Source: Candidatus Brocadiaceae bacterium (GTDB taxonomy: Bacteria > Planctomycetota > Brocadiia > SM23-32). Taken from it: a DNA stretch of 64,000 nt. Both the position numbers and the translations under genes were made by a program. Shown here piece after piece: positions 19,965-64,000 of the stretch. The notes under the pieces were generated by a model. It worked only from the letters and a program-made list of their open reading frames with translations, was not told the origin of the DNA and searched no databases. Position 1 is the first letter of the stretch; each line of letters begins with the position of its first letter. The stretch spans positions 62,001 to 126,000 of the forward strand of contig JAAYEJ010000031.1 in NCBI GenBank assembly GCA_012728835.1, in the 5' to 3' direction.

Positions 19965-20711
19965 ATGTTGAAACGACTGGGTGCGGTGGCGATGGCGATC
20001 GGTCTCATCGGGCTCACCGGTTGCGCGCAGCTCCGGGAACTGAGGAATCAGAACGCAAGCCTTGCCGATCAGGTGGCCAGCCTCCAGTCCGAGCGGGCGG
20101 TGCTGCTCGAAGAGAACCGCGAGGTGAAGTCCCGCGCCGATGCCCTCCAGGCGCTGCTCGACAAGGCGACGCGCGAAGGGCAGACGATGGCGCGCGAACT
20201 CGAAGGGGTCCGCCGCGCGAAAGAGGAGGCCCACCAGCAGGCGCTCGAACTGAAGCGTCTTCTGGCGGCGATGGACGGCGTCGACGTCGACCAGCGCCCC
20301 GAAGGCAACTTCGTGCGCTTCGAGAGCGACATACTCTTCTCCCCCGGCCGCGATGAGCTGACGCCGGAGGCCACTGCCGCGCTGGACCGTTTCATGGGCT
20401 ACCTGCGCGACCATCCGGAGCAGATGATCCGCATCGACGGACACACCGACGGCGTGCCGATCAGCCGGTCCGGCTGGAAGGACAACTACCACCTGGGCGC
20501 GATGCGCGCGCTGAGCGTGATGCGCTACCTGATCGGCATCGGCCTGGACCCGTCCCGGGCGTTCGTCGCCGGCTTCGGGCCGAATGAGCCCCGGGTCGCG
20601 CCGCACGAACCGACCGCCGACGTGCCTGAGAACCGCCGGGTCGAGGTGTTCCTGGTCCCCCGCAAGGCAGCCGCCGACGCCGCCGAGCGTGTTGGCGCGT
20701 TCGGGGGCTGA
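19965..20711 (+). CDS. OmpA-family lipoprotein with coiled coil
   Basis: A 248-residue outer-membrane lipoprotein that probably tethers the membrane to peptidoglycan. ATG 19965 has AGGAG upstream and starts a signal peptide with lipobox LTGC and lipidated Cys20. Residues about 22-105 are a heptad-rich coiled coil ('LRNQNASLADQVASLQSER'). The C-terminal OmpA domain has 'ILFSPGRDELTPEA', 'IRIDGHTDGVPI' and 'ENRRVEVFL', with the Asp/Arg residues that bind diaminopimelate. It is probably co-transcribed with the HTH membrane protein. A hairpin at 20734-20773 may end the transcript. Confidence 0.93.
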   Translation: MLKRLGAVAMAIGLIGLTGCAQLRELRNQNASLADQVASLQSERAVLLEENREVKSRADALQALLDKATREGQTMARELEGVRRAKEEAHQQALELKRLLAAMDGVDVDQRPEGNFVRFESDILFSPGRDELTPEATAALDRFMGYLRDHPEQMIRIDGHTDGVPISRSGWKDNYHLGAMRALSVMRYLIGIGLDPSRAFVAGFGPNEPRVAPHEPTADVPENRRVEVFLVPRKAAADAAERVGAFGG

Positions 20712-20779: not shown

Positions 20780-20809
20780 TTGTGAGCCCCCGCCGGACTC
20801 GTCTATAAT
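20780..20809 (+). promoter_or_regulatory. Sigma70-like promoter of the lipoyl/ketosynthase operon
   Basis: TTGTGA, 18 bp, TATAAT, 51 bases upstream of the ATG at 20861. It appears to drive the following four tightly packed genes. Confidence 0.7.
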
Positions 20810-20860: not shown

Positions 20861-21376
20861 ATGGTCCACAGGCTCCTGATGCCGAGGATCGACCCCAACG
20901 TCGACGAGGGAACCATCGCGCAGTGGTTGGTGGCGCCCGGCCAGCCGGTCGAGGCGGGGCAGCCCGTGGTCGAGATCATCACGGACAAGGCCACGTTCGA
21001 GCTGGAGACGGACGTGGCCGCCACCTGCCGCCGGCTCTGTGCGCCCGCGCGCAGCGTCGTCCCGGTCGGATACGTCCTGGCCCTGCTGAGCGATCCGCCG
21101 GACGAACCGCTCCCGGACGTCGAGGAAGAGAACAGGGCGGTGCTGGAAGCCTACCGCGACGCCCTCCTGGGCGGGGGCGACGCCGCCCCCGGCCGCCCGC
21201 CCATCACGCCGGACGAGGGGGCGGGGCCGGGCGCAGCGCGGGCCACGCCCGCCGCGCGGCGCCTTGCGCGGCGCGTGGGTATCGACCTGGAGGCGCTCTG
21301 CGCGCGCTGCGGCCGAGTGGTGCGTGTGCACGACGTCCAGGAGGAGTTGCACCGTCGAGGAGGCCCCCGACCGTGA
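20861..21376 (+). CDS. Stand-alone lipoyl domain plus E3-binding domain protein
   Basis: A 171-residue protein matching the N-terminal part of a 2-oxoacid dehydrogenase E2 subunit but lacking the catalytic acyltransferase domain. Residues 1-80 are a lipoyl domain with 'TDKATFE', Lys43 being the expected lipoylation site. A Gly/Pro linker follows, and residues about 126-171 resemble the peripheral subunit-binding domain ('ATPAARRLARRVGIDLEAL', 'GRVVRVHDVQEEL'). No E1, E3 or catalytic E2 gene is nearby. The stop overlaps the GTG of the ketosynthase gene (GTGA), so the two are translated together, suggesting a swinging-arm role in acyl metabolism. Confidence 0.85.
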   Translation: MVHRLLMPRIDPNVDEGTIAQWLVAPGQPVEAGQPVVEIITDKATFELETDVAATCRRLCAPARSVVPVGYVLALLSDPPDEPLPDVEEENRAVLEAYRDALLGGGDAAPGRPPITPDEGAGPGAARATPAARRLARRVGIDLEALCARCGRVVRVHDVQEELHRRGGPRP

Positions 21377-22590
21377 CCACGACGAGGGTGTGCGTAACCG
21401 GCATGGGGGCGGTCTGCTGCCTGGGAGTCGGCGTGGACGCGCTGTGGGAGGGACTGCGGCGCGGCGCGTGCGGGCTGGGGCCGCTGACGCGGTTCGCCCT
21501 GGGGGGCGTGCCCTACGGCCTGGCCGGGCAGGTCGAGGGGTTCGACACCGAGGCGGACGAGTCCCGCGGCCTCTCGAGGGGCGCGCGCTTCGCCCTGCGT
21601 GCGTGCCGGGAGGCGCTGGCGGGCTTCCCGCAGGAGTGCCGTCGCCGGCTGGCCGTCGTCACGGGCAGCAACTTCGGGCCGCAGGAGGCCATCGTGAGCC
21701 TCCTGGCCGGCGGCGAAGCCCCCTGGCCGGCGGCTTCCGGCCCGTTCGGCGCCGAGGCGGCCGCGCTGGCCGGGCGTCTGGACGCCGGCGGCCTGGTGGC
21801 GTCCCTGTCGCTCTCGTGCGCGTCCGGAAACGCCGCGATCGCGCACCTGCTGGAGCTGATACGCTACGGCCGCGCGGAGGCCGGGCTGGCTTGCGGTTAC
21901 GACAGTCTGGACCGGTTCAGTTGGGCGGGGCTCTCGGCTCTGAGGGTCATGGCGGCGCCGCGGGGCGGCCGGCCGGCCGGGGTTCGCCCGTTCGACCGCG
22001 CCCGCAACGGCACGGCATTCAGCGAGGGGGCGGGCTGCCTGTTGCTGGAGACCGAGGAGCACGCGCGCGAGCGCGGCGCGGCCATCCTGGCGGTGGTCGC
22101 CGGCGCCGGGGTCAACAACAACGCCTGCCACCTGACGCATTCGGACGAGGAGGGCAGCGGCCTGGCGCACGCGATGCAGATGGCGCTCGACGACGCCGGC
22201 CTGGAGCCGTCCGACGTGGATCACGTCAACGCGCACGGCACGGCGACGAAGCTGAACGACGTGGCCGAGGCCCGCGCGCTCGCCGCCGTGTTCGATGACG
22301 CCCTGGCGGGCATCCCGGTGACGTCCATCAAGGGCAGCATCGGACACGCGATGGGGGCGGCCGGGTCCCTGGAGGCGATCGCCTGCGTCCGGACGCTGAC
22401 GAGGGGCATCATCCCGCCGACCGTGGGCCTCGAGACGCGCGACCCCGACTGCGCGGTGGACGTCGTGCAGGGAGCGGTGCGGCGGGCCGACGTGTCCGCC
22501 GTGCTGAACAACGCGGCCGGCATCGGCGGGGCGAACGCCGCCGTCGTGTTTCGCCGCGCCGATGGCCATCGGAACGGGGAAGGGAAGTAG
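21373..22590 (+). CDS. Beta-ketoacyl-ACP synthase (FabF-like, complete triad)
   Basis: A 405-residue ketosynthase that condenses an acyl primer with malonyl-ACP in fatty-acid or polyketide synthesis. The catalytic set is intact: Cys149 in 'LSLSCASGNAAI', His288 in 'NAHGTATKLND', and Lys320/His325 in 'SIKGSIGHAMGAAGSLEA'. The N-terminal 'VCVTGMGAVCCLG' and 'RPFDRARNGTAFSEGAG' also fit the KAS II family. It starts with GTG overlapping the lipoyl gene, and the second ketosynthase starts 2 bases after its stop. This is the active partner of a two-ketosynthase pair. Confidence 0.95.
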   Translation: MTTTRVCVTGMGAVCCLGVGVDALWEGLRRGACGLGPLTRFALGGVPYGLAGQVEGFDTEADESRGLSRGARFALRACREALAGFPQECRRRLAVVTGSNFGPQEAIVSLLAGGEAPWPAASGPFGAEAAALAGRLDAGGLVASLSLSCASGNAAIAHLLELIRYGRAEAGLACGYDSLDRFSWAGLSALRVMAAPRGGRPAGVRPFDRARNGTAFSEGAGCLLLETEEHARERGAAILAVVAGAGVNNNACHLTHSDEEGSGLAHAMQMALDDAGLEPSDVDHVNAHGTATKLNDVAEARALAAVFDDALAGIPVTSIKGSIGHAMGAAGSLEAIACVRTLTRGIIPPTVGLETRDPDCAVDVVQGAVRRADVSAVLNNAAGIGGANAAVVFRRADGHRNGEGK

Positions 22591-22592
22591 CC

Positions 22593-23756
22593 ATGGAGGA
22601 AGCCCCCGTGCACCCCGACCGCGTGTACGTCAGCGGCATGGGCGTTCTGACCGGCCTGGCCGACAACGTGGAGGACCTGGCGCGCGTGCTGGCCGAGCGG
22701 AGCATCGTGCGGCGCACGGACCGGACGCAGCGGGAGCTTCCCCGGCGGCCATTGCTGCTGCCCCCCTTCGACCTGGCGGACTTCCTGGAGACCCGGCGGC
22801 CATACCTGGACACGCAGTCGCGCTGCGCCCTGGCCGCCGCGGCGATGGCGCTGGACAACGCCGCCGTCGAGCCGGACGAGGTCGACCCCCTGTTGTGCGG
22901 CCTCCACTACGCGAACTCCCTCGGGAACCTGGACACTCTGGAGGCCTTCCGACGGGCCGTCGACGAGAAGGGCATGCGCCTGGCCTCGCCCGTGCTCTTC
23001 TCGCACGCATACCCGAACACGACGGCCAGCCTGCTGGCCATCGAGTTTGCATTGGCGGGCGTCCATCAGAACGTCTGCGGCGGCCGGCTGTGCGGCGCGC
23101 AGGCGCTGCAGGGCGCCCTGATGGCGCTCGACGCCGGCCAGGCGGACATGATCCTCGCCGGCGGGGCCGACGCGGTCGCACCCGAACTGCTGGAGCGGAT
23201 GTGGCAGGGGGCGCCGGGCAATCTGCCGCCCGGTCAGGCGGCCGCCTTCCTCGTTCTGGAGACCCAGGACTCCGTCGAGCGGCGCGAGGGATATGCCTTC
23301 TGCGAGTTGGCTTCCGTCGTCTGCATGGGCACGGGCGGGGCCGCTACGGCGGCCGGCATGGCCGAGGCCCTGGAGGCGGCCGTGGACGCCGCCATCGCCG
23401 AGGCGGCCATGTGGGACGGCGACGTGGGGCTGGTGGCGTGCTGCGGCGCCCCGGCCGAGGACTCGCCGGCCGCCCAGGCGGAGGGACTGGCTCTGCGGCG
23501 CTTCTCGCAGGTGCCGAAGGTCGGCGCCGCTCCGTTCGTCGGCAACGTCTTCGCGGCGAGTTTCCCGCTCGAATGCGCACTGGCGGCCGAGGCCGTCTCG
23601 TCCGGCCGCGTCCCGGCCGACGTGGTGCTCTGGGGTGAGAAGGGGGGCGTGGAGGTCTGGGTGGAAGGCCGCCCCGAGCCCCTGCTGGGCGGCGCGGCCC
23701 TGGTCGTCGGCTGCAGCCCGGAGGAGGTCGCCGCGGCCGTGCTCGTGGCCATGTAG
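22593..23756 (+). CDS. Ketosynthase-like partner lacking catalytic residues (chain-length-factor-like)
   Basis: A 387-residue thiolase-fold protein related to ketosynthases ('VYVSGMGVLTGLADNVEDLA', 'GQADMILAGGADAVAPELL'). The nucleophile region reads 'VCGGRLCGAQAL' and no longer aligns as xACxSG. There is no NxHGT motif, and the SIKGxxGH region is replaced by 'GAAPFVGNVFAASFPLECAL'. This matches the KS-beta or chain-length factor that pairs with an active ketosynthase in type II polyketide, aryl-polyene and related systems. It lies 2 bases after the active ketosynthase, so heterodimer formation is the natural inference. The product is unknown. Confidence 0.85.
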   Translation: MEEAPVHPDRVYVSGMGVLTGLADNVEDLARVLAERSIVRRTDRTQRELPRRPLLLPPFDLADFLETRRPYLDTQSRCALAAAAMALDNAAVEPDEVDPLLCGLHYANSLGNLDTLEAFRRAVDEKGMRLASPVLFSHAYPNTTASLLAIEFALAGVHQNVCGGRLCGAQALQGALMALDAGQADMILAGGADAVAPELLERMWQGAPGNLPPGQAAAFLVLETQDSVERREGYAFCELASVVCMGTGGAATAAGMAEALEAAVDAAIAEAAMWDGDVGLVACCGAPAEDSPAAQAEGLALRRFSQVPKVGAAPFVGNVFAASFPLECALAAEAVSSGRVPADVVLWGEKGGVEVWVEGRPEPLLGGAALVVGCSPEEVAAAVLVAM

Positions 23757-23767
23757 AGGGCCCAAGG

Positions 23768-24619
23768 ATGCACAGCCTGAGCATCGTCGTGCTGGCGCAC
23801 AATCAACTGGCCTACACGCAGGCCTGTTTGAACAGCCTGCGGGAGACCACGGGGGTGCGGCTGGAGGTGGTGGCGGTCGACAACGGATCCACCGACGGCA
23901 CCGGGGGCTGGCTGGCCGGCCGGAGTGCGGCGTTTGCCGAACGCGGCCATACGCTGCGGATCCTGCGCAACGAGGCGAACATCGGCTGCTCGACCGCGCG
24001 CAACCGGGGCGTCGACTGCGCCACGGGCGACTATTGCGCGTTCATGGACAACGACGTGGTGGCCGTCGACCCCCGATGGGCCGTCGGCCTCATCGACGCC
24101 ATTGAACGGGCAGGCGGCCGGGCGCTCGCCGGGCCGAAGCTCGTCTACCCGGTTCCGCCGCATCGCATCCAGTGTGCGGGGGTGGCCATCTCGCGCACGG
24201 GGCGCGTGCAGTTCCGCGGGCGCGGGCGCGACCGCGCCGAACCGGAGTTCAGCCGGCCGCTGCGCTGCCAGGCGCTCATCAGCGCCTGCATGGTGTTCCC
24301 CCGACGTCTGTTTGCCGAGATCGGCGGCCTGGACGAGGCGTTCAACCCGATCGAGTACGAGGACCTGGACCTCTGCTATCGGGCGCGTGCGCACGGCTAC
24401 CAGGCCCTCTATGAGCCGGCAGTCGAGGTGCATCACTGGGAGAGCATCACCAGTGAGGGGACCGAGAAGCTGCCGAACACCTACCTGATCATCAAGCACG
24501 GCCTGCTGTTCAAGAAACGCTGGCGGCACATGTTCGAGACCGAGGACGGGCCGCCGGACGACGCCTGCCGCTGGGAACGCCTCGAGGTGCCGTCGCTCCA
24601 CGGCCGCCGCACCCGATGA
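23768..24619 (+). CDS. Family 2 glycosyltransferase
   Basis: A 283-residue GT-A glycosyltransferase with 'LSIVVLAHNQLAYTQACL', 'VAVDNGSTDGT', the DxD-like metal motif in 'CAFMDNDVVAVD', and an 'EYEDLDLCYRARAHGY' acceptor-side motif typical of rhamnosyl- and related transferases (COG1216). No membrane helix is evident. It begins 11 bases after the KS-beta gene, in the same operon. Its place inside an acyl-chain cluster suggests that the lipid or polyketide product, or a lipid-linked glycan, is glycosylated; that is inference. Confidence 0.9.
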   Translation: MHSLSIVVLAHNQLAYTQACLNSLRETTGVRLEVVAVDNGSTDGTGGWLAGRSAAFAERGHTLRILRNEANIGCSTARNRGVDCATGDYCAFMDNDVVAVDPRWAVGLIDAIERAGGRALAGPKLVYPVPPHRIQCAGVAISRTGRVQFRGRGRDRAEPEFSRPLRCQALISACMVFPRRLFAEIGGLDEAFNPIEYEDLDLCYRARAHGYQALYEPAVEVHHWESITSEGTEKLPNTYLIIKHGLLFKKRWRHMFETEDGPPDDACRWERLEVPSLHGRRTR

Positions 24620-24638
24620 GGGCTGTGGGCTCGTTCGA

Positions 24639-24668
24639 TTGCACAAGCGCCCCGGCATGCGGTAGCCT
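24639..24668 (+). promoter_or_regulatory. Possible promoter for the acyl carrier protein gene
   Basis: TTGCAC, 18 bp, TAGCCT, 39 bases upstream of the ATG at 24707. The -35 is good and the -10 is weak. Confidence 0.4.
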
Positions 24669-24706
24669 GTGGGCGACCGACACGGCTCGAAGACGGGAAC
24701 GACCGG

Positions 24707-24961
24707 ATGACCGAATCCATGGAAGACGCAGTGAAGCGGATCATCGTCGAGCGCTGCTTCCTGAGCATCGCTCCGGAGGAGATCGGCACGGAGGATGACC
24801 TTCTGGAGGCCGTCGGACTCGATTCGGTGCAGATACTGGAGGTCGTGGTCGGCCTCGAAGAGGTCTTCGGCGTGACGTTCGAGGATGCGGATTTCGAGAT
24901 CGCGAACTTCGCCAGCGTCCGGGCCATCGTCGACTACCTGCGCGCCAGAGGCGACAGATGA
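24707..24961 (+). CDS. Acyl carrier protein
   Basis: An 84-residue acidic four-helix carrier. The phosphopantetheine attachment Ser lies in 'VGLDSVQILEVVV', and 'LEEVFGVTFEDADFEIANF' matches helices II-III. Length is standard. It is not next to fabD/fabG and so is unlikely to be the housekeeping fatty-acid carrier. Its position 88 bases after the glycosyltransferase of the ketosynthase pair suggests that it carries the chain built by those enzymes. A separate weak promoter may let it be expressed on its own. Confidence 0.93.
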   Translation: MTESMEDAVKRIIVERCFLSIAPEEIGTEDDLLEAVGLDSVQILEVVVGLEEVFGVTFEDADFEIANFASVRAIVDYLRARGDR

Positions 24962-25004
24962 GCCCGCACGCACGGCGGAACGCCTGCATGCACGGAGAGG
25001 CATG

Positions 25005-25247
25005 ATGGGAAATGTGTTGAGAGGCGGCTGGTTCGGACGGCAGGTGAGCATCCTGCTGGTCAACGGCAAGACGGTCGGCGGGGAGGTCTCGGAGGTCACC
25101 GATCACTACATCGTGCTGACCCGCCCCGGCAAGCCGGACGTACAGGTCATGGGCACGGCCGTCGTGCTGGTGACGGCCGCCGAGACCTCCGCCACGGCCG
25201 CGCGCGAACAGGCGCGTGCGGAGGCCGGACCGCCGCTGTTCGAGTGA
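25005..25247 (+). CDS. Small Sm/Hfq-like fold protein
   Basis: An 80-residue protein. ATG 25005 has GGAG 7 bases upstream; ATG 25002 is the alternative. Residues about 8-55 alternate beta strands in the Sm pattern: 'GRQVSILLVNGKTVGGEV', then 'DHYIVLTRPG' and 'VQVMGTAVVLV', like the Sm1/Sm2 motifs of Hfq and LSm proteins (G-x-V-x-V-x-L-x-N-G-x-x-x-G). The C-terminal 20 residues are Ala/Glu-rich. It lies 43 bases after the ACP gene and may be the last gene of that cluster. RNA binding is possible but unproven, and the family is uncertain. Confidence 0.55.
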   Translation: MGNVLRGGWFGRQVSILLVNGKTVGGEVSEVTDHYIVLTRPGKPDVQVMGTAVVLVTAAETSATAAREQARAEAGPPLFE

Positions 25248-46017: not shown

Positions 46018-47466
46018 CTACCCGTTCGGCGGGCGTTTGGGAAGGGCGTTGCCTGCCTCTCCGGGAAGTCCCGGCGGGGCGGCCATCGACGCCCGGCTCA
46101 CGGGGAACCCCCGGGCGGCGAAGAAGCCGGACAGGTCGCGGCCGGCGGCGATGCTGAAGTAGAAGGCCATCCTGTCGATGGCCGCCACCTGGCGCGCGCG
46201 GAGCGGCGCCTGCCATTGCCGGGCGGCCCGGCAGTACCTCGCCAGAAGGTCGCGCCCGTGCAACTCCTCCAGTTCCTTCAGGGCGTTCAGGAGCTTGCCG
46301 GCGCCGACGGGGTAGTTCGTGCCCGTGGTGATGTCGTAGTTGCCGTGCTCGGCCTCATAGGCCCTCCATCTCTGCAGAAGCTGTTCCTCCTCCCGTCGGC
46401 CCCGTTCGGCCGCCTCGCCGCCGAGCTGCTGCCGCACTCGTGAATGCATGATCCGGGAGAACCCTCCGTCGCCGAGCCAGACCGGGGCGTCCACACAGAG
46501 GGAATTGGACAGCTCGTGGATCAGCACGGCCTCCACCGCCTCCGGAGAGCCCAGACCGCCGATGCCGACCGTGCGGCCGGACGTGAAGCCGCTGCCCGCG
46601 CAGGGCAGCACCCAGATGGTCCGTGGTTCGGTCGCCCCGTGTCCGTACTCGCGCGCCAGGACGGCGTAGATGCGCGGCGCCGTCCGGACGATGATCTGCA
46701 CCGTCTCCACCGGCAGAACCTCGGAGTAGCGGACGCGGAAGGCGCCGAAGGTGACTCCCCTCTCGCCGGGATGCAGGCCGAAGGGGCCGGTGGCCGGCCG
46801 GGGCAGGCGGCGATCGCCTGCGCGCGCCTTCCCGAGCCATGCCGCCATGGCCTGGAGCTGCCGGCCGCGCGCCGCCGCGTGCGCCGCGTCCGGCAGGCGA
46901 TGCGCCAGGCCGTCGGCATTCAGGGCCAGGACGCGCCCCCGGCCCGGGCTGAGGGCCACGGCGACCGGCTGCCCGTCGGCGTCGACGATCACCGGATGCT
47001 GGCCGAAGCGCGGCGCGATGCGTGCGCCGGCGCCCGTCCATTGGTCCGGTGTGCGGGGCGACAGGTGGAAGGAGAGCGGCGCGACCGCCGCCGCATCCGT
47101 AAACTCGATGCCGAACGCGCCGGCCAGCGCAGCGGAGGCGGTGCCGCAGATGAGCAGCCCGCCTCCGTTCGCAACGAAAAGGCGCAGGGCCTCGACCTCG
47201 CCGGCGGCGTAGCGGCGCTCCGGGTGCTCGCAGGCGACGACGACGTCATAGGGGGCGATCCGGGCCGGCGAGACGGCGGCCAGCGACAGGTCCACGGCGT
47301 CGGCGAAGTACTCCCTGGCGCCCTTGCACGTGGCGAAGCGGACCGAGCGCGACTGGTCGTAGTAGACGCGGACCGGGTCCGGCGCCCGCTCCGCCGCCAG
47401 AGCCAGCCCGCCGATCAGCAGCCCGATCAGCAGCCCGCAGCCCCTGCCGGTCGCTCGGCCGTGCAT
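46018..47466 (-). CDS. Secreted protein with GATase-like and degenerate metallopeptidase-like parts
   Basis: A 482-residue exported protein of uncertain family. ATG 47466 has AGGAGG 6 bases upstream, then a signal peptide ('GLLIGLLIGGLALAAERA'). Residues about 30-140 resemble a glutamine-amidotransferase-like fold ('YDVVVACEHPERRYAAGEVEALRLFVANGGGLLICG'-type text split by strands). The C-terminal half looks like a gluzincin peptidase: 'AVLIHELSNSLC' stands where HEXXH would be and 'VWLGDGGFSR' where WFxEG would be. The second zinc His is missing, so catalysis is doubtful. Function unknown; glycan or peptidoglycan binding is possible. Confidence 0.6.
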   Translation of the reverse strand: MHGRATGRGCGLLIGLLIGGLALAAERAPDPVRVYYDQSRSVRFATCKGAREYFADAVDLSLAAVSPARIAPYDVVVACEHPERRYAAGEVEALRLFVANGGGLLICGTASAALAGAFGIEFTDAAAVAPLSFHLSPRTPDQWTGAGARIAPRFGQHPVIVDADGQPVAVALSPGRGRVLALNADGLAHRLPDAAHAAARGRQLQAMAAWLGKARAGDRRLPRPATGPFGLHPGERGVTFGAFRVRYSEVLPVETVQIIVRTAPRIYAVLAREYGHGATEPRTIWVLPCAGSGFTSGRTVGIGGLGSPEAVEAVLIHELSNSLCVDAPVWLGDGGFSRIMHSRVRQQLGGEAAERGRREEEQLLQRWRAYEAEHGNYDITTGTNYPVGAGKLLNALKELEELHGRDLLARYCRAARQWQAPLRARQVAAIDRMAFYFSIAAGRDLSGFFAARGFPVSRASMAAPPGLPGEAGNALPKRPPNG

Positions 47467-47539
47467 CGCACGCCTCCTCGTCCTGACGCAGTTCCCGATT
47501 TCGGCCCCGCCCGCATCTTCGGCCGGCCGGCGGGGCGGC

Positions 47540-49072
47540 TCACTCCAGCCGGCGGTCGAGGGTCCGGTAGTTGATGGCCTCGCTGACGTGCTGGGGGAGG
47601 ATGCGGTCGGAGGCTTCGAGGTCGGCGATGGTGCGGGCGACCTTGAGGATCTTGTCGTAGGCGCGTGCCGAGAGGCCGAGCGTCTCCATCGCCTGGCGCA
47701 GCAGCAGCCGGCCGTCGTCGTCCAGCGCGCAGTGCGCGCGCACCTGGCGGCGGGGCATCTGCGCGTTGGCGTAGACGCCGTCGCCGGCGAAGCGTTCGAT
47801 CTGAATCCGCCGGGCGGCGACCACGCGCGCCCGCACGGCAGCCGACGGCTCGCCCGGCCGCGCGGCGGCCAGTTCCCGGTATTCCAGCGGCGGCACGTCC
47901 ACGTGGATGTCGATGCGGTCGAGCAGGGGGCCGCTGAGGCGCCGGCGGTAGTTGTGGACCTGCCGCGGCGTGCAGCGGCACTGCCGGCGCGGGTCGGTGT
48001 AGTGGCCGCACGGGCAGGGGTTCATCGCGGCGACGAGCATGAACTGGGCCGGGTAGGCGATGGTCATCTGCACGCGTGCAATCGTCACCGTGCCGTTCTC
48101 GAGCGGCTGGCGCAGGGCCTCGAGCGCCGAGAGGGCGAACTCCGGCAACTCGTCGAGGAACAGCACGCCGTGGTGCGCCAGGCTGATCTCGCCGGGCCGG
48201 GGATGCGTGCCGCCGCCCACAAGGCCCGCGTTGCTCACGCCGTGGTGCGGCGCGCGGAAGGGCCGCACGGTCATCAGCGAGGTGCCCGGCCGCAGCAGGC
48301 CGCAGATGCTGTAGACGCGCGTGGTCTCCAGGGACTCCTCGAGCGTCAGCGGCGGCAGGATCGTGCAAAGGCGCTGCGCCAGCATGCTCTTGCCGGCACC
48401 CGGCGGCCCGATCATCAGCATGTTGTGCCCGCCGGCGGCCGCCACCTCCAGGGCGCGCCGGGCGTGGTGCTGGCCCTGCACCTCGGCCAGGTCCACGTCG
48501 TACGACGGGCCGTCGCTGAAGACGCGATCGACGTCCGTGCGGACGGGCTGGAGTGCCTGCGCCCCGGACAGGAAGCCGACCGCCTCCGCAAGGTGGTTCA
48601 CCGGGATGACGTCGAGGCCGCGGACGACGCCGGCCTCCCTGGCGTTGTCCACCGGCACCACCATGCCCCGGAACCCCTGCGCGCGCGCCTGGAGGGCCAT
48701 CGAGAGGCAGCCGTTGACCGCCCGGACGCGTCCGTCCAGCGCCAGCTCGCCGACGACCGCGTAGGCCTCGGTGGATGTCAGCTTGACGCTGTCGATGGCG
48801 GAGAGCAGTCCCAGGGCGATCGGCAGCTCGAAGGCCGGGCCCTCCTTGCGGCGGTCGGCGGGAGCCAGGTTGACGGTGATGGCGGAGGGCGGCAGGAGAT
48901 GGCCGGTGCTGCGCAGGGCGGCCCGGACGCGGTCGATGCTCTCCTTGACGCTGGCATCGGGCAGGCCAACGATGGTGGAGCGGGGCATGGCTGCGCGGGT
49001 CACGCAGACCTCGACCTCGACGGGAAAGGCGTCGATTCCGAACACGCCCATGCTTTGCAGTTTTGCGAGCAT
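47540..49072 (-). CDS. comM: YifB/ComM family Mg-chelatase-like AAA+ ATPase
   Basis: A 510-residue cytosolic AAA+ protein. The N-terminal Lon-like domain ('[34 protein letters not shown]') is followed by Walker A '[14 protein letters not shown]', '[18 protein letters not shown]', Walker B '[11 protein letters not shown]' and a four-Cys zinc loop '[17 protein letters not shown]'. ComM acts as a branch-migration helicase in natural transformation in Vibrio and Haemophilus, and the gene is widespread in bacteria without known competence. ATG 49072 is the family start. A promoter with a perfect TTGACG -35 lies at 49114-49142. Confidence 0.96.
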
Positions 49073-49113
49073 CGTGCTCCCGCCGCCCGAAGATCGCGCG
49101 CCTTAGCTGAGAC

Positions 49114-49142
49114 ATTAAATGGGAGAATCGCATGCACGTCAA
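49114..49142 (-). promoter_or_regulatory. Sigma70-like promoter for comM
   Basis: On the minus strand: TTGACG, 17 bp, TTTAAT, about 42 bases upstream of the ATG. Confidence 0.6.
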
Positions 49143-49296
49143 GTGACGGCCGGTGCGCACGGCGGGGCTGCAGGGCCTGCGGCGGCCTCTCGCGGGTGTT
49201 GAAACCTCGCGCCGAAATGCGTAGCATTTTGCCCGAGCAGCCGCGCTGTGCACAGATGGGGCCAAATAGGACGCACGCCCGGGGAGTATAAGTCTG

Positions 49297-49866
49297 ATGG
49301 AGGGACAAGCGGACAATACCCCTGACGCGATGGGCGAGAGCACGTTGCTGAGGCGCTGCCAGGCGGGCGATAAGGACGCGTTCGGCCTTGTGGTGAGGCG
49401 ATACGCGGGGCGCGCCACCGGCGCGGCGCTGCTGCTGCTGGGCAGCCATGAGGACGCGCTGGACGCCTCGCAGGAGGCATTCGTGCGCGCGTGGCGCCAC
49501 ATGGAGCGGTTCGACCTGAACCGGCCCTTCTACCCTTGGTACGCGACCATCCTGCGGAACGTCTGCCTGAGTCGTCTGCGGAGCCGCACCCGCCGGCCGA
49601 CCTACGAGCTTCCCGACGACCACCCGGGGGCCGGCGAGGCGAACCCCGTCCTCCTGGCGGAGCGCAACGAGCGGCGTGACCGGGTCTGGCGGGCCGTCAT
49701 GGCTCTGAAGCCGCACCATCGGGAGATCATCGTTTTGTGCCATTTCCAGCAGCTGTCGTACAGGGAGATGGCGGCGGCGCTGGAGATACCCATCGGCACG
49801 GTCATGTCGCGGCTGCACACCGCCCGGCTGGCCCTGCGCGAGACGCTCAGGGATGATGCGCCATGA
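49297..49866 (+). CDS. ECF-type RNA polymerase sigma factor
   Basis: A 189-residue sigma70-family factor with region 2 ('LLRRCQAGDKDAFGLVVRRY', 'DALDASQEAFVRAWRHMERFD', 'FYPWYATILRNVCLSRLR') and region 4 ('HREIIVLCHFQQLSYREMAAALEIPIGTVMSRLHTARLAL' shortened to its helix-turn-helix core LSYREMA...GTVMSRL). It redirects RNA polymerase to a special promoter set, probably in response to an envelope signal. It overlaps the anti-sigma gene by 4 bases (ATGA). A TATAAG lies only 5 bases before the ATG and is unlikely to be a real -10; ECF factors often transcribe their own gene, but no ECF-type promoter is obvious. Confidence 0.95.
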   Translation: MEGQADNTPDAMGESTLLRRCQAGDKDAFGLVVRRYAGRATGAALLLLGSHEDALDASQEAFVRAWRHMERFDLNRPFYPWYATILRNVCLSRLRSRTRRPTYELPDDHPGAGEANPVLLAERNERRDRVWRAVMALKPHHREIIVLCHFQQLSYREMAAALEIPIGTVMSRLHTARLALRETLRDDAP

Positions 49867-54679: not shown

Positions 54680-55936
54680 ATGAGCGACATCACCGTACCA
54701 GTGGAAGAACAGATGGCGCGCATTCGCCGCGGCGCCGCTCAGATCGTGCCCGAGGCGGAACTGGCCAACAAGCTGGAGCGTTCGCTCCGCCAGGGCCGTC
54801 CGCTGCGCGTGAAGCTGGGCCTGGACCCGACGGCCCCCGACATCCACATCGGGTTCGCGGTGGCCCTGCGCAACCTGCGGACGTTTCAGGACCTCGGCCA
54901 CCGGGCCGTCCTGATCATCGGCGACTACACGGCGATGGTCGGCGACCCGAGCGGCCAGAATGCCACGCGCCCCCAACTGACCTACGAGCAGGTCACCGAG
55001 CATGGCCGCACCTACTTGGAGCAGGTCGGCAAGGTGGTGGACCTGGACCGGGCCGAGGTGGCCCGCAACGGCGACTGGTTCCGCACGATGTCCTTCGCCG
55101 AGGTGATTGCCCTGGCCGCCAAGCTGACGGTGGCCCGCTGCATCGAGCGGGACGACTTTTCGAAGCGAATCGCCGAAGGGCGCCCCATCGGACTGCACGA
55201 ACTCCTCTACCCGCTCATGCAGGCCTACGACTCCGTCATGGTGCGCAGTGACGTCGAACTGGGCGGGACCGACCAGACCTTCAACATCCTCCTGGGGCGC
55301 GAGCTGCAGCGCCAGGTCGGGCAGGAGCCGCAGGTGGCCGTCACCAACCCCCTGCTGGAGGGCCTGGACGGCGTGCAGAAGATGTCCAAGAGCAAGGGGA
55401 ACTACATCGGCATCTCGGAGCCGCCCGAGACGATCTTCAGCAAGGCGATGAGCATACCGGACGAGCTGATGGAGAAGTACTTCCTGCTGGCTACGGACCT
55501 TCCGCAGGACCGGGTGGCGCTCATGCTGTCCCCGGACGTGCATCCGCGCGAGGCGAAGGCCGAACTGGCCGCCGCCATCGTGCGCCTCTACTACGACGAG
55601 GAAGCGGCCGAGCGCGGCCGGCGGATGTTCGATGCCGTCTTCCGCGACCGCGAACTGCCCGAGGAGATGCCCGAGGTGCGCGTCCCGGCTGGCGAGCTAC
55701 GGGACGGGGCGGTCTGGATCGTGGGGCTTCTGCGGCTGGTGGGCGCCGCCGGGTCGGGCGGCGAGGCCCGGCGCCTGGTCGTTCAGGGCGGCGTGAGCCT
55801 GGGGCGGGATGCGGACTCGCTGGAGGTGGTCGCGGACCCGGATGCCCACGTGCGCGTGCCGGCCGGGACCGTTCTGAAGGTCGGGAAGCGGCGTTTCTGG
55901 CGTCTGCAGCCGGGGGGAACGGGGCCGGCCAGTTGA
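54680..55936 (+). CDS. tyrS: Tyrosyl-tRNA synthetase
   Basis: Class I aminoacyl-tRNA synthetase charging tRNA-Tyr; 418 residues. The HIGH-type motif is 'DPTAPDIHIGF' and the KMSKS loop is exact ('QKMSKSKGNYIGI'). 'LIIGDYTAMVGDPSG' and 'ELGGTDQTFNILLGREL' complete the catalytic domain. The last 65 residues are an S4 RNA-binding domain ('GSGGEARRLVVQGGVSLG'). The length and the long HIGH-KMSKS spacing match the TyrZ-like bacterial subgroup. The gene appears single, with its own weak promoter and no T-box leader. Confidence 0.97.
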   Translation: MSDITVPVEEQMARIRRGAAQIVPEAELANKLERSLRQGRPLRVKLGLDPTAPDIHIGFAVALRNLRTFQDLGHRAVLIIGDYTAMVGDPSGQNATRPQLTYEQVTEHGRTYLEQVGKVVDLDRAEVARNGDWFRTMSFAEVIALAAKLTVARCIERDDFSKRIAEGRPIGLHELLYPLMQAYDSVMVRSDVELGGTDQTFNILLGRELQRQVGQEPQVAVTNPLLEGLDGVQKMSKSKGNYIGISEPPETIFSKAMSIPDELMEKYFLLATDLPQDRVALMLSPDVHPREAKAELAAAIVRLYYDEEAAERGRRMFDAVFRDRELPEEMPEVRVPAGELRDGAVWIVGLLRLVGAAGSGGEARRLVVQGGVSLGRDADSLEVVADPDAHVRVPAGTVLKVGKRRFWRLQPGGTGPAS

Positions 55937-55961
55937 TGGGATTGCCGGATTCGGGTATCAT
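55933..55961 (+). promoter_or_regulatory. Sigma70-like promoter for the PpiD/SurA-like gene
   Basis: TTGATG, 17 bp, TATCAT; the -35 overlaps the tyrS stop. The -10 lies about 48 bases upstream of the TTG start. Confidence 0.6.
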
Positions 55962-56009
55962 CGCCCCTTCCTTCCCGCGACTGTTCCCATCGTTCGGAGG
56001 AGTACGGCG

Positions 56010-57836
56010 TTGAAGATCATGCGCTGGTTCAGGAGACACCAGGCCCAGCTCATGGCTGCTGCGGCTGTGATGCTGATGCTCTCGTGGGGCCTCGGCGGCT
56101 ATCTGTCCCGTCTGGTCGATCGTGCGGATGACGTCGCCGGCTGGATCGACGGACAGCCCATCGGCCGGGTGGAGCTTCAGGAGGCATCCGGCACGCTGGA
56201 ACTCGGGACACGGCTGTGGTTTCTGGAACCGGAGATGCGCTTTGCGGTCCAGTTCGCGCGCGGGAGCGATGCCGCCCGGAAGGCCGGCATCCTGCTCGCG
56301 ACGGACTTCTTTGGCTTCGTCGTGGGTGACGAAGGCCAGCGGGTCGCCGGCGACGAGGCCCTCTGGCGGTGCGCGGCGCTGCTCGCGGAGGTGCGGCGCG
56401 AGGGCGTCCTGGCGACACCGGCGGAAGCCTCCGAACTGCTGGCGGTCGCGCCGCTCCTGCAGGCCGGCGGGATCTCCGGCCCGGAGGCCTTCGCCCAGGT
56501 CCTGCGCCAGTGGGGGCTGAGTGAGGCGGACGTGACCCTGTACGTCGGCAACCTGGTGCGCATCGGCAAGCTGATCGCGCTCCGGCGCGCCGCCGTCCTG
56601 ACGAGCACCCCGGAGGTCTGGGCGCGCTACGTTCACGAGAACGAGCAGGTCAGGCTGCGACTTGTGGAACTGGACGCGTCCCTGTTCCTGCCGATCGTCG
56701 AGTTCGACGAGGAGGACCTGAAGCGCTGGCATGGCGAACACCTCGACCAGCCGGGCGACCCCGCCGCCGGCGTCGTCGGCTACCTGGCTCCGCGGCGTGC
56801 GAAGATCGAGTGCGCCGTGGCCCCGTTGGAGCGGCTGCAGGATGAGGCCGTCGTGACCGACGAGGAAGTGGCCGACTACTACGAGCAGAACAAGCACCGG
56901 TTCCCGGCCGAACGGCCGGCGGCCGGGGACGACTCCGAGGAAGAGCGGGCGCCGGGCGTCCTGCACCGGCCGCTCGAGGAGGTGCGCGACGAGATCGTCC
57001 GCACGCTCAAGGAGCGCAAGGGACTCCAGGCGGCCGGCGAGCTGGTCGACACCGTGGTCGGTGAGCTTGCCTCGGTCGCCGCCGACTACGTGCACGAGCC
57101 GCTGCCCCTGGCGCAGATGGCGCGGCGGCATGGGCTGGAGCACAGCATCCCGAGCGTGGAGGGCCGCCAGTTCCTGTCGCGCCAGGAAGCGGCGGCCGCG
57201 CTGCCCGACGGGGACGCCGTGGCCATGTTCGTATTCGACGAGCCGGACAGCCTGTTCGATCCCCAGCAGTTCGGTCGCGGGAGCCGGCCGATGGTCTGCC
57301 AGGTGCTGGCCCTGCGCGAGCCGGAGCCCCTGTCGTATGCCGAGGTCGAGCCGCAGGTCCGGCACGACTACGGACTGCATCGCGCGATGGAGTCCGCCGG
57401 GGCCTTTGCCGAGAAGCTGCGGGCCGCGGCGGACGGGGAGGGCCTCTCCCCGGCGGCGGCCGAGATGGAGGGCCGGTTGAGGGCACTCCTTGGTGAGAGC
57501 GCGCCCGGAGACCCCCTGCTCCGGGTTCAGGAGAGCGGGCTCTTCCGAAGGACGGCCGAGCAGGTTGAAGGCCTGGCGGCCGCCGGCGAGGACCTGGTCG
57601 AGGCGGCTTTCGCGCTGGTGCGGGACGAGGCCGGCGTCGTCACGCAGGGCCCGCCGGCGAACAGGTGCTTCGTCTTTGAGGTCATCGAGCGCTCGACTCC
57701 CTCCGGGGTGGGCGAGGAGAGGGAGTGGGAAGGGTTCCGCGTGGCGCACCTGTATGAGAAGCAGGGGCGGGAGCTGCGGCGCTGGATGGATGGCCTCATG
57801 CGCGGGGTGCGGCGCGCGGAGCGTGCGGAGGAGTAG
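56010..57836 (+). CDS. Membrane-anchored PpiD/SurA-like periplasmic chaperone
   Basis: A 608-residue protein. TTG 56010 is supported by GGAGGAG 7 bases upstream; ATG 56019 has no such site. An N-terminal signal anchor ('QLMAAAAVMLMLSWGLGGYL') is followed by 'VAGWIDGQPIGRVELQEA', typical of the SurA/PpiD N-terminal domain. Long helices follow, with parvulin-like fragments in 'VTDEEVADYYEQNKHRFP', 'RPLEEVRDEIVRTLKERK' and 'EPEPLSYAEVEPQVRHDY'. A clear PPIase active site is not seen, so it is probably a holdase for secreted proteins. RibF follows 6 bases after the stop. Confidence 0.78.
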   Translation: MKIMRWFRRHQAQLMAAAAVMLMLSWGLGGYLSRLVDRADDVAGWIDGQPIGRVELQEASGTLELGTRLWFLEPEMRFAVQFARGSDAARKAGILLATDFFGFVVGDEGQRVAGDEALWRCAALLAEVRREGVLATPAEASELLAVAPLLQAGGISGPEAFAQVLRQWGLSEADVTLYVGNLVRIGKLIALRRAAVLTSTPEVWARYVHENEQVRLRLVELDASLFLPIVEFDEEDLKRWHGEHLDQPGDPAAGVVGYLAPRRAKIECAVAPLERLQDEAVVTDEEVADYYEQNKHRFPAERPAAGDDSEEERAPGVLHRPLEEVRDEIVRTLKERKGLQAAGELVDTVVGELASVAADYVHEPLPLAQMARRHGLEHSIPSVEGRQFLSRQEAAAALPDGDAVAMFVFDEPDSLFDPQQFGRGSRPMVCQVLALREPEPLSYAEVEPQVRHDYGLHRAMESAGAFAEKLRAAADGEGLSPAAAEMEGRLRALLGESAPGDPLLRVQESGLFRRTAEQVEGLAAAGEDLVEAAFALVRDEAGVVTQGPPANRCFVFEVIERSTPSGVGEEREWEGFRVAHLYEKQGRELRRWMDGLMRGVRRAERAEE

Positions 57837-57842
57837 TCTCGC

Positions 57843-58796
57843 ATGGATGTGCTGCGCTGGCCCGGCTCCGGTGCCCGGCCGCCCCGATGCGGCGTCGTGA
57901 CGGTCGGCGTGTTCGACGGCGTGCACGTGGGGCACGCGGCCATCCTCGAATGCGTCGTCAGCGAAGCCCGGGCCCGATCCTGCCGGTCCGCCGTGGTCAC
58001 CTTCGACCGCCATCCGGGGGCGCTGCTCAACGCCGCCCCCCAGCCGGCGATCACCTCGCTGGACCACCGGATCCGTCTGTTCGCGGCGCTGGGCCTGGAC
58101 GCGTGCGTGGTGGTGGAGTTCACCGCGGCCGTGGCCGCGACGGCGGCCGAGGACTTCGCCCGCTCGGTCTTCGGCGACCTGCTGCAGGCCCGGGTCGTGG
58201 TGCTGGGGGAGGACGCCCGCTTCGGGCACGGCCGCCGGGGCGACGCGGCCCTCCTGAAGGCGCTCGGGTTAGCCGTGCGCCGCGTGGGACCGGTGCTGGT
58301 CGGCGGCCGGCGCGTGAGCAGCACCGCGATCCGGCAGGCGATCCGTGCCGGCGACTTCGAGGATGCGCATCGCCTGCTCGGACGCCCCTTCTCCCTCTAC
58401 GGAATCGTGGTGCGCGGCGCGCAGCGCGGCCGGGCGCTCGGCTACCCAACGGCCAACCTGAACGTGCAGAACGAAGCCATACCCCCCGAGGGCGTCTACG
58501 CCGGCTGGGCAATGGCCAACGGCGAGCGGATGCCCTGTGCGATCAGCGTCGGCCGATGCGAGACGTTCGCGCCGGGCCCGTCGCTGCCCGTGATGGTGGA
58601 GGTGCACCTGCTGGACCGGTCAATGGACCTGTACGGGCGGCGCCTCGAGGTCGAGTTCGTCTGCCGGCTCCGGCCCCAGCAGACGTTCGAATCGGCGACG
58701 GACCTGTCCGCGCAGATCGCGCGCGACGTTGCCGCGTGCCGGGACGTCCTGGCAGGGCCTCAGGACGGCAGCTCCGGCGCCGAGGGCAGCTCGTAG
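57843..58796 (+). CDS. ribF: Bifunctional riboflavin kinase/FAD synthetase
   Basis: Makes FMN from riboflavin and then FAD; cytosolic. 317 residues, typical length. The N-terminal FAD synthetase half has 'VTVGVFDGVHVGHAAIL', 'VVTFDRHPGALL' and 'RRVSSTAIRQAIRAGDFEDAHRLLGRPF' in part (SSTAIR). The C-terminal kinase half has 'RGRALGYPTANL', 'GVYAGWA' and 'VEVHLLDRSMDLYGRRLEVEF'. The usual N-x-G-x-x-PT segment is replaced by 'SVGRCETFAPG'. It follows the PpiD-like gene after 6 bases. Its end overlaps the convergent DUF3179 gene by 37 bases. Confidence 0.95.
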   Translation: MDVLRWPGSGARPPRCGVVTVGVFDGVHVGHAAILECVVSEARARSCRSAVVTFDRHPGALLNAAPQPAITSLDHRIRLFAALGLDACVVVEFTAAVAATAAEDFARSVFGDLLQARVVVLGEDARFGHGRRGDAALLKALGLAVRRVGPVLVGGRRVSSTAIRQAIRAGDFEDAHRLLGRPFSLYGIVVRGAQRGRALGYPTANLNVQNEAIPPEGVYAGWAMANGERMPCAISVGRCETFAPGPSLPVMVEVHLLDRSMDLYGRRLEVEFVCRLRPQQTFESATDLSAQIARDVAACRDVLAGPQDGSSGAEGSS

Positions 58797-60840: not shown

Positions 60841-60858
60841 ACGGCCGTTTCAGGCCGT
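60841..60858. terminator. Hairpin between convergent bioY and hypB
   Basis: ACGGCC/GGCCGT stem with GTTTCA loop directly after the bioY stop and overlapping the last hypB codons; possibly bidirectional. Confidence 0.45.
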
Positions 60859-61500
60859 TGCCGCGCGGGCTTGTCGCAGGAACTCGAACCAGGGCTCGAA
60901 CCCCGTGTTCCGGGCCGCCGAGGTCTCGAAGACCTTCACGTTCGGCCGCGCCTTGCGGGCGTCCTGGCGGACGCGGGCCGGATCGTACGGGCAGTGGGGC
61001 AGCAGGTCGATCTTGTTGATGAAGACCACGTCGGCCCGCACGAACAGGGCGGGGTACTTGCGGACCTTCTCATCGCCCTCCGGAACGCTCAGGACGGCCA
61101 CCTTGATGTGCTCGCCGAGCGCCAGAGCGGATGGGCAGACCAGGTTCCCCACGTTTTCGATGAACAGGTAGTCGATGGCGTCGAGGTCCAGTCGGGCGAC
61201 CGCATCGGCGATCTGCGTGGCGTTCAGATGGCAGCCCCCGCCCGTCTCGATCGGCAGGGCCGTCATGCCGCAGTCCTGAAGCCGCTCGGCGTCCAGCGCC
61301 GTCCGGACGTCGCCGATGATGGCGGCGGCTCGGCCGTCGAAGTGCCGCGCCGTGACCTCCAGGATGGACGTCTTGCCCGAGCCCGGCGACCCGATGATGT
61401 TCATGGCGTAGACGCCATGCCGGTCGAACACCTCCCGGTTGCGCGCGGCGATCGTGTCGTTGCTGTCACGGACGGACCGTCCCACCTCAATCTTCGCCAT
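60850..61500 (-). CDS. hypB: Hydrogenase nickel-incorporation GTPase HypB
   Basis: A 216-residue G3E-family GTPase that delivers nickel to the hydrogenase large subunit together with HypA. P-loop 'GSPGSGKTSILE', metal-binding 'ETGGGCHL', 'FIENVGNLVCPS' (Walker B and switch regions) and guanine-specific 'NKIDLLP' are all present. There is no His-rich or CxxCGC N-terminal extension, so it lacks the extra nickel-storage site. ATG 61500 lies inside the end of hypA (14-base overlap), so the two are coupled. It is the last gene of the hydrogenase operon. Confidence 0.97.
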   Translation of the reverse strand: MAKIEVGRSVRDSNDTIAARNREVFDRHGVYAMNIIGSPGSGKTSILEVTARHFDGRAAAIIGDVRTALDAERLQDCGMTALPIETGGGCHLNATQIADAVARLDLDAIDYLFIENVGNLVCPSALALGEHIKVAVLSVPEGDEKVRKYPALFVRADVVFINKIDLLPHCPYDPARVRQDARKARPNVKVFETSAARNTGFEPWFEFLRQARAATA

Positions 61501-61834
61501 CTTCGACCTCGACGTATTGAATGACGACGTCGCGCCCCTGGAGGATGTCGCGGGTGTACTGGCCGCACCGGGGACAGGGCGCAAACATGTCCTCGGCCTG
61601 ATACCGGTGTCCGCAGACGCAGCGCACGAGCGCGGGCACGCAGGCGACGCACGCCCGCGTCTGCGTCAGGCCATGCTCGTCGAGCACGGCGCGCAGGCAG
61701 AACTCCAGCGCCGACGGGCTCGCCGACGAGAGGGCACCCACCTGGACGGCCAGCGCCGTCATCTTCGAGGCGCGCTCGCCGCAGGCGTGCACAGCCTCCC
61801 GGACGATGTCTTCGGATAGCGCCAGTTCGTGCAT
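61487..61834 (-). CDS. hypA: Hydrogenase nickel-incorporation protein HypA
   Basis: A 115-residue zinc and nickel protein. It begins with the conserved 'MHELALSEDIV', whose His2 binds nickel, and carries the zinc ribbon 'RCVCGHRYQ...CPRCG'. It works with HypB to insert Ni into the [NiFe] centre. ATG 61834 is the family start. It overlaps hypB by 14 bases and follows the maturation protease gene after 71 bases on the same strand. Confidence 0.96.
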   Translation of the reverse strand: MHELALSEDIVREAVHACGERASKMTALAVQVGALSSASPSALEFCLRAVLDEHGLTQTRACVACVPALVRCVCGHRYQAEDMFAPCPRCGQYTRDILQGRDVVIQYVEVEDGED

Positions 61835-61905
61835 GGATCTCCGGCCGCCCGCAAAGCAGCCATGATAGCGCGCGGACGCGGTCCGCGTCAAGCCAACCGG
61901 CGGCG

Positions 61906-62376
61906 TCACGATGCGGGGAGGACCTCGGCGACGACGCGGCCGGCATAGTCGGCCAGGCGGGCCTCCAGTGCGGGCGACAGGCCGACGCCGGGTTCGATGC
62001 GCAACGGTTGGATGCCGAAGATGACGATCTCCGGCAAGCGCTCGCCCAGTCTTCGGGCCAGCCGGAGCAGGGCCGGCAGGTCGGGCTCGTGGAGCGATGC
62101 CGCGCCCGGCCCTGCGGCGGGCCGCAGCTCGGCGGGTGTGAAGCGGCGGATGGTGCCCGGGGGCGCGCCCATCATCGCGCAGTCGACGAGCACGACGCGG
62201 CGCCGGCCGCGCAGGGCGTGCAGCAGTGCGAGGCCCGGCGTGCCCAGGTCCAGGAAGTCGATCCCCGGCGGCTCGCCGGCCCGCCGGGCGGCCAGGTCGA
62301 CCACACGAGGGCCGACCCCTTCGTCTCCCATCAGAGGGTTGCCCAGCCCCGCCACGAGCACGTCGCTGATGGTCAT
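61906..62376 (-). CDS. Hydrogenase maturation protease
   Basis: A 156-residue endopeptidase of the HycI/HoxW/FrxA type that clips the C-terminal tail of the large subunit after nickel insertion. 'VLVAGLGNPLMGDEGVGPRVV' holds the nickel-sensing Glu/Asp, 'FLDLGTPGLALLHAL' follows, and 'VVLVDCAMMG' provides the second Asp. The His equivalent is in 'ASLHEPDL'. ATG 62376 begins 8 bases after the large-subunit stop. It is almost certainly dedicated to the adjacent large subunit. Confidence 0.95.
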   Translation of the reverse strand: MTISDVLVAGLGNPLMGDEGVGPRVVDLAARRAGEPPGIDFLDLGTPGLALLHALRGRRRVVLVDCAMMGAPPGTIRRFTPAELRPAAGPGAASLHEPDLPALLRLARRLGERLPEIVIFGIQPLRIEPGVGLSPALEARLADYAGRVVAEVLPAS

Positions 62377-62384
62377 CGGGCGGG

Positions 62385-63683: not shown

Positions 63684-64000
63684 GGGTGGGCTCCTGCTGG
63701 CTGTTGAACAGCGTCAGGCGTCTCTGGAGGTCCTCAACGGTCTTCCCGTAGGTCTCCATCACTTCCCGGGCGGCGTCGACATTCGGGTTCGGGGCCAGCC
63801 CGCGGCACCCGTAGCACCACATGCCGGCCGCCGGGCAGGGGGCGTTGCAGCCGGCCCGGGTGACGACGCCCAGGCAGATCTCGTTGTACTCGTACCGGCA
63901 TACGGTGCCACGCGCCTTGCACTCCACGCAGACGGGATAGGTGGGGAGGTCCGGCTCCCTGCCCAGTGCCAGACACCGCACGACGTGGCCGAACTCCTCC
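63667..64000 (-). CDS. [NiFe]-hydrogenase small subunit, C-terminal part (gene continues past the window)
   Basis: About 111 C-terminal residues of the small subunit that carries the electron-transfer iron-sulfur clusters. Cysteines are dense: 'VCVECKARGTVC', 'EICLGVVTRAGCNAPCPAAG' and 'MWCYGCRG'. The 'TRAGC..PCP' and 'CYGCRG' spacing resembles HydD/MvhG/HoxY-type group 3 small subunits. The frame is open to base 64000, so the N-terminus lies outside. Its stop overlaps the large-subunit start by 17 bases, as is common in this operon type. Any diaphorase subunits would lie further right. Confidence 0.9.
   Translation of the reverse strand, partial: EEFGHVVRCLALGREPDLPTYPVCVECKARGTVCRYEYNEICLGVVTRAGCNAPCPAAGMWCYGCRGLAPNPNVDAAREVMETYGKTVEDLQRRLTLFNSQQEPTHVEHR

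Follow-up and report, generated by a model that had tools for sequence, protein, structure and literature searches.

A 64,000-nucleotide stretch of a Candidatus Brocadiaceae genome (contig JAAYEJ010000031.1, positions 62,001 to 126,000; hereafter the window) carries a discrete cassette in which a free lipoyl carrier protein (LIP) stands in front of two ketosynthases (KSα and KSβ), a GT2 family glycosyltransferase, and an acyl carrier protein (ACP). The functional unit, LIP-KSα-KSβ-GT2-ACP, spans positions 20861-24961 of the window on the forward strand. Judging from the sequences, we favor with modest confidence the view that this cassette supplies the condensing half of a module, which would consist of a particular type of E1αβ, the free carrier with its lipoyl and E3-binding domains, and KSα, here accompanied by KSβ. 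The evolutionary tie of LIP with a decarboxylating enzyme and a ketosynthase of its own suggests an undescribed route of acyl feeding that does without the usual acyltransferase.

A sequence-only reading of this DNA had placed six genes on one strand, and the gene calls agree with it. LIP (20861..21376; 171 amino acids) had been described as a lipoyl and E3-binding domain (E3BD) protein with no catalytic domain, a description that both Pfam and structure prediction bear out. Specifically, Pfam places Biotin_lipoyl at residues 5-75 (6e-11) and E3_binding barely over its cutoff, while the AlphaFold model (mean pLDDT 89.5) consists of a lipoyl barrel (1-80), a linker helix, and a three-helix domain (130-166). 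Foldseek matches of the model are lipoyl domains and E2 proteins. By Pfam, alignment, and model, the E2 acyltransferase domain PF00198 was not found on LIP, which stops after the E3BD. The predicted lipoylation site, Lys43 within ITDKATF, is invariant in an alignment of 17 free LIPs; free LIPs keep this lipoyl turn as well as the E3BD stretch ATPAARRLA...GVDL. Phylogenetically, 25 free LIPs lie apart from 11 E2-attached lipoyl proteins (support 96/98). It is supported that the free lipoyl protein is no stray piece of a 2-oxoacid dehydrogenase. Arginines that contact E3 in bacillar E2 presumably align with conserved arginines of the LIPs, which we treat as a lead only.

The remaining genes of the cassette also match their first description. 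KSα (21373..22590) starts with GTG inside a genuine GTGA overlap with the LIP stop, and its full catalytic set (Cys149, His288, Lys320, and His325) is invariant in 16 aligned relatives. KSβ (22593..23756), recognized by domain match and alignment, is an inactivated partner in a position like that of a chain-length or cyclization factor: the Cys/His/Lys set is missing from it and from 13 relatives wherever their sequences cover those positions (alignment of 14). KSβ and its relatives have an invariant motif of their own, F(S/P)HxYxNT..SLxAIE (Phe136 and His138), unlike the glutamine of classical chain-length factors. The GT2 glycosyltransferase (23768..24619), homologs of which adjoin E1β and/or ACP in other phyla, and the dedicated ACP (24707..24961; Ser40 in LDSVQ) were both recovered by clear domain matches. 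KSα-type ketosynthases split from the next-best FabF sequences with tree support of 100/99. The ketosynthase of genome G271 and a partial one of G184 also fall on the LIP side of the tree, although these two were examined solely because their genomes have LIP. Against equivalog models, KSα scored 301.1 bits for FabF (TIGR03150; cutoff, 493.75) and 203.5 bits for AmcF (NCBIfam; cutoff, 325), below threshold in both cases.

The sequence-only reading had staked its claim on the recurrence of the lipoyl gene with the ketosynthases. LIP and KSα are conserved as neighbors or within the same genome across Planctomycetota and Armatimonadota, so that the claim withstood the refuting condition set for it. 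Among 392 Planctomycetota genomes, free LIP, called by score and frame length, occurred in 20, and 16 of these were within the 20 best KSα genomes (hypergeometric p ~2e-21; by family, ~9e-8), values that ignore shared ancestry within families and rest on cutoffs chosen after the lists had been seen. For KSβ the overlap was 5/7 (p 4e-6). In two genomes, G088 and G389, which are 76% and 61% complete, LIP is present but no KSα was detected.

Gene order in relatives extends this association to E1. In a genome of the same order (G009) and one of the same class (G011), LIP is followed by a FabG-like ketoreductase (KR), KSα, KSβ, E1α, and E1β. At two loci of Armatimonadota/Zipacnadia, E1β is followed by GT2-ACP and afterwards by hydrolases and GT4 (L104) or by GT4 (L090). 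The latter locus also has an AcpS-type phosphopantetheinyl transferase directly after LIP, and it is one of 13 loci at which LIP adjoins AcpS. At L100 and L098, E1β is not part of the locus but is encoded at another place in the genome, where it once more adjoins GT2 or GT2-ACP. Several divergent loci were annotated by six-frame homology; a simple gene caller missed genes there. The composite locus in other Planctomycetota and Armatimonadota reads LIP-(AcpS)-KR-KSα-KSβ-E1α-E1β-GT2-ACP. In the window, GT2 comes directly after KSβ, as though E1αβ had been taken out from between.

Simpler systems narrow the shared part. The order in G362 and G369 is LIP-AcpS-KSα. In G362 (L183, 2116-6877), the block runs with DAC (cyclic di-AMP synthase), YbbR, PdxJ, and a DHDPS-family gene, and because of the company of DAC, YbbR, and PdxJ, this AcpS may be a housekeeping enzyme. 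Membership of KSβ in the invariant core was rejected on account of systems without it (G362, G369, f54); the invariant core is LIP, KSα, and E1. The KS-alpha/KS-beta/ACP triplet on which the sequence-only reading had built is present in the window, but it is not invariant, given that G362, G369, and others have no KSβ.

The window genome encodes two 2-oxoacid-type E1β genes, one in a fused E1 (contig C12) and one in an E1α-E1β pair (contig C19, about 47,410-49,376), and no E2 was found within the 18-kb stretches around them. The C19 E1β and its counterpart in G004 cluster with E1s from LIP operons and from the other LIP genomes that were tested. This LIP-type E1β clade (support 98/96 in one tree and 99/96 in another, 18 rows versus 15) stands apart from the E1 lineages found beside normal E2s or matching them. 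In three genomes of the family that have no LIP (G001, G005, and G008), all E1s are of the other types. In G184, G115, G134, and G199, ACP comes immediately after LIP-type E1αβ, and the ~4 kb examined contained no E2; an E1-like pair and ACP are also encoded together at L189, L190, and L192, but not at the window locus. E1α retains the GDG...NN cofactor motif and is closest to pyruvate E1 by profiles and solved structures. The window genome has one E3 (lipoamide dehydrogenase) above cutoff, encoded on contig C29 together with LipA, also above cutoff, and a LipB-like gene. The same run (about 54691-57919; L084) includes a lone lipoyl protein of 79 amino acids, which was rejected as an E1 partner because it adjoins LipA/LipB/E3 and has no E3BD. 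Two further observations concern E1 genes of other genomes. A recurrent second cluster (L122, G010:C120, and L100:644-5989) combines an E1αβ pair, a transketolase-like pair, and a class-III aminotransferase, and at L118 (G078:C78, 8074-10456) a lone 146-amino-acid lipoyl protein adjoins a fused E1.

Lipoyl arms are known as carriers in 2-oxoacid dehydrogenases and glycine cleavage, where the receiver is the E2 core or the H-protein partner. Our best reading is that the present module would be a 2-oxoacid dehydrogenase that has no E2 acyltransferase of its own, the acyl acceptor being the dedicated ketosynthase. From gene content, domains, catalytic residues, linkage, co-occurrence, and separate clades, we infer a lipoyl-to-ketosynthase hand-over, the absence of CoA, the identity of the 2-oxoacid, the product, and E3 docking, as follows. 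The thiamine-diphosphate-dependent E1αβ of C19 would act on a 2-oxoacid (pyruvate or a closely related compound is most likely), decarboxylating it and reductively acylating lipoyl-Lys43 of LIP. Within the KSα-KSβ pair, the KSα residue Cys149 would then take the acyl group directly, with no free acyl-CoA, and KSα would condense it with malonyl carried by the dedicated ACP. The dedicated KR of relatives would reduce the product to 3-hydroxyacyl-ACP, a step that housekeeping FabG may perform in the window genome. GT2, plus the GT4s of relatives, may join the chain to a sugar or decorate a glycan, although a glycosylated-lipid product is a guess. LIP would be reoxidized by the single E3 of the genome, recruited via the E3BD. 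We hold only tentatively, at slightly less than even confidence, the specific proposal that the ketosynthase takes its starter straight from the acyl-lipoyl protein in place of E2, which would couple oxidative decarboxylation to C-C bond formation without acyl-CoA. Of the two roles that had been guessed for the lipoyl arm, supplying acyl units is now the better one, because the corresponding E1αβ has been located, often within one operon; to that extent, the earlier interpretation is partly supported. The idea that the module replaces FabH priming here was not supported: the contig of the cassette also bears a FabH, within a PlsX-FabH-FabD-FabG-ACP-FabF operon (L081), and the module is therefore an addition in this genome. 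A separate cluster of several ketosynthases and ACPs in the window genome (L083, G000:C11:92000-111000) is unrelated to LIP.

Several observations weigh against this reading. The LIP-type E1αβ of the window genome is on a separate contig from the cassette. In three genomes (G078, G115, and G374), the KSα type is present but no free LIP was detected, and G078 has a KR-KSα-KSβ-GT2-ACP cluster with no LIP of the main type. The E3BD loop between helices two and three is shorter in LIPs than in E2, which makes E3 docking by LIP uncertain. Furthermore, a complete E2 encoded in the window genome (C61:89,199) could in principle serve LIP in trans, and in G213 (L207, G213:C238), a genome with KSα and KSβ types, a full lipoyl-E3BD-acyltransferase E2 comes after LIP-type E1αβ, possibly an evolutionary intermediate or a reversal. 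These last two points favor an alternative in which LIP is an auxiliary lipoyl/E3-binding subunit working with that E2 core, so that acyl-CoA is made and the ketosynthase pair uses CoA or ACP starters; given the G213 arrangement, LIP may descend from a full E2 of this kind. Yet the LIP-type E1 clade is separate from the E1s of normal E2s, the genes linked to LIP and E1 are those of KSα, AcpS, KR, and ACP, and among members of the clade an E2 neighbor was found in G213 only. We consider this alternative unlikely, if worth keeping in view.

Somewhat less probable is a scheme in which E1αβ uses a ketose phosphate and passes a glycolyl (C2 hydroxyacyl) unit through LIP to ACP, with KSα either extending glycolyl-ACP or replacing the acyltransferase. 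The parts list equals that of SclP/SclQ1-4 and QncN/L/M, namely, two E1 polypeptides, a lipoyl protein, ACP, and a phosphopantetheinyl transferase (PMC6335953), and E1β adjoins ACP in several genomes just as AcpS adjoins LIP. However, the E1s here resemble the pyruvate type most closely, the Qnc/Scl lipoyl proteins retain their acyltransferase domain and are described with no mention of a ketosynthase. It is improbable that LIP carries electrons rather than acyl groups, its dithiol arm acting with E3 in a thiol step; an E3BD-like domain and one E3 in the genome would fit, but the tight link to a decarboxylating, lipoyl-acylating E1αβ would be left unexplained. Finally, short genes drift, and LIP and KSα are far apart in several genomes, as would be expected if a leftover lipoyl gene had merely come to lie next to a fatty-acid-type ketosynthase. 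Co-occurrence in the 392 genomes and operons shared across phyla contradict such a chance neighborhood, which we regard as very improbable.

Compared with described systems, the module combines familiar parts in a different way. It shares with PDH-type 2-oxoacid dehydrogenases an E1αβ with the cofactor motif, a lipoyl domain with lysine in the turn, an E3-binding-like domain, and one E3, whereas LIP has no acyltransferase core and is tied to ketosynthase, KR, and ACP, and its E1s form a separate clade. The closest precedent in logic is that of QncN/QncL/QncM and SclQ1-4, in which E1-like proteins, a lipoyl-acyltransferase, and an ACP yield a glycolicacyl unit (PMC6335953). There too an E1-like pair, a lipoyl protein, and an ACP (with phosphopantetheinyl transferase) bring an acyl unit to ACP, but through the acyltransferase domain on the lipoyl protein, in whose place KSα/KSβ/KR are found here. 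The nearest ketosynthase pair with an ACP is the AmcF-AmcG KS-CYF heterodimer with AmcB of cispentacin, which likewise joins a ketosynthase, a degenerate ketosynthase, and a small dedicated ACP for one C2 extension; AmcB is also the best NCBIfam match of the window ACP, although below cutoff (60.2 bits against 80). In that system, however, a 2-oxoglutarate starter is loaded by the adenylating AmcH, with no lipoyl protein or E1. Like type II polyketide synthases (KS-CLF), the cassette has active and inactive ketosynthases side by side with an ACP, but it adds the lipoyl/E1 module, and KSβ is dispensable. KSα has the fold and catalytic residues of FabF, which provides its best solved-structure matches, yet it belongs to its own clade, and the genome has a separate FabH-FabD-FabG-ACP-FabF operon. 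In the open-access literature, we found no paper joining a lipoyl carrier to a ketosynthase with E1 or a 2-oxoacid dehydrogenase, nor did broader queries bring up a relevant system, and there is a sizeable chance that the lipoyl-ketosynthase junction itself is new.

The boundaries of the cassette follow from a clean presence/absence site. The sequence-only reading had counted an Sm-like protein (25002..25247) as the sixth member. Its fold is supported by the structural model, which matches Hfq with weak E-values (best 1.5e-3) and an rmsd of ~1 Å over 49 columns; no Pfam match was found. Its membership was rejected. G001 and G005, which belong to the same family and have neither LIP nor this KSβ, show the order HisI, an acidic protein, OmpA, the Sm-like gene, and MurJ, and in them OmpA and the Sm-like gene are 118 and 96 bases apart, versus 4.3 kb of LIP-KSα-KSβ-GT2-ACP between the same flanks in the window. 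Because the Sm-like gene keeps these neighbors in two cluster-free relatives, LIP-KSα-KSβ-GT2-ACP is discrete, with the Sm/Hfq-fold protein at the right edge of the site and the OmpA-family protein (19992..20711 from the called start; 19929 is an alternative start) on the left flank, both outside the system. Upstream of the cassette lies a sigma-70-like promoter match, TTGTGA-18-TATAAT (20780..20809), a consensus match at 10/12 positions and the sole one in 4.9 kb, where 0.1 is expected by chance. Elsewhere, a BrxC/BrxD-like ATPase fragment adjoins the cluster in G004 (L067:6495-7229), and the minus strand of the window at 60850-63999 has HypA-, HypB-, hydrogenase maturation protease-, and NiFe hydrogenase large subunit-like genes.

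A lipoyl protein that serves a ketosynthase, if confirmed, would join central metabolism to the building of acyl chains in a new way. It would allow chains of the fatty-acid or polyketide-like kind to be primed without CoA and would offer a way into the engineering of starter units. The E1-LIP-KSα trio is a signature for genome mining, and it predicts a so far unknown acyl product, probably glycosylated, in lineages of Planctomycetota and Armatimonadota that are mostly known from metagenomes.

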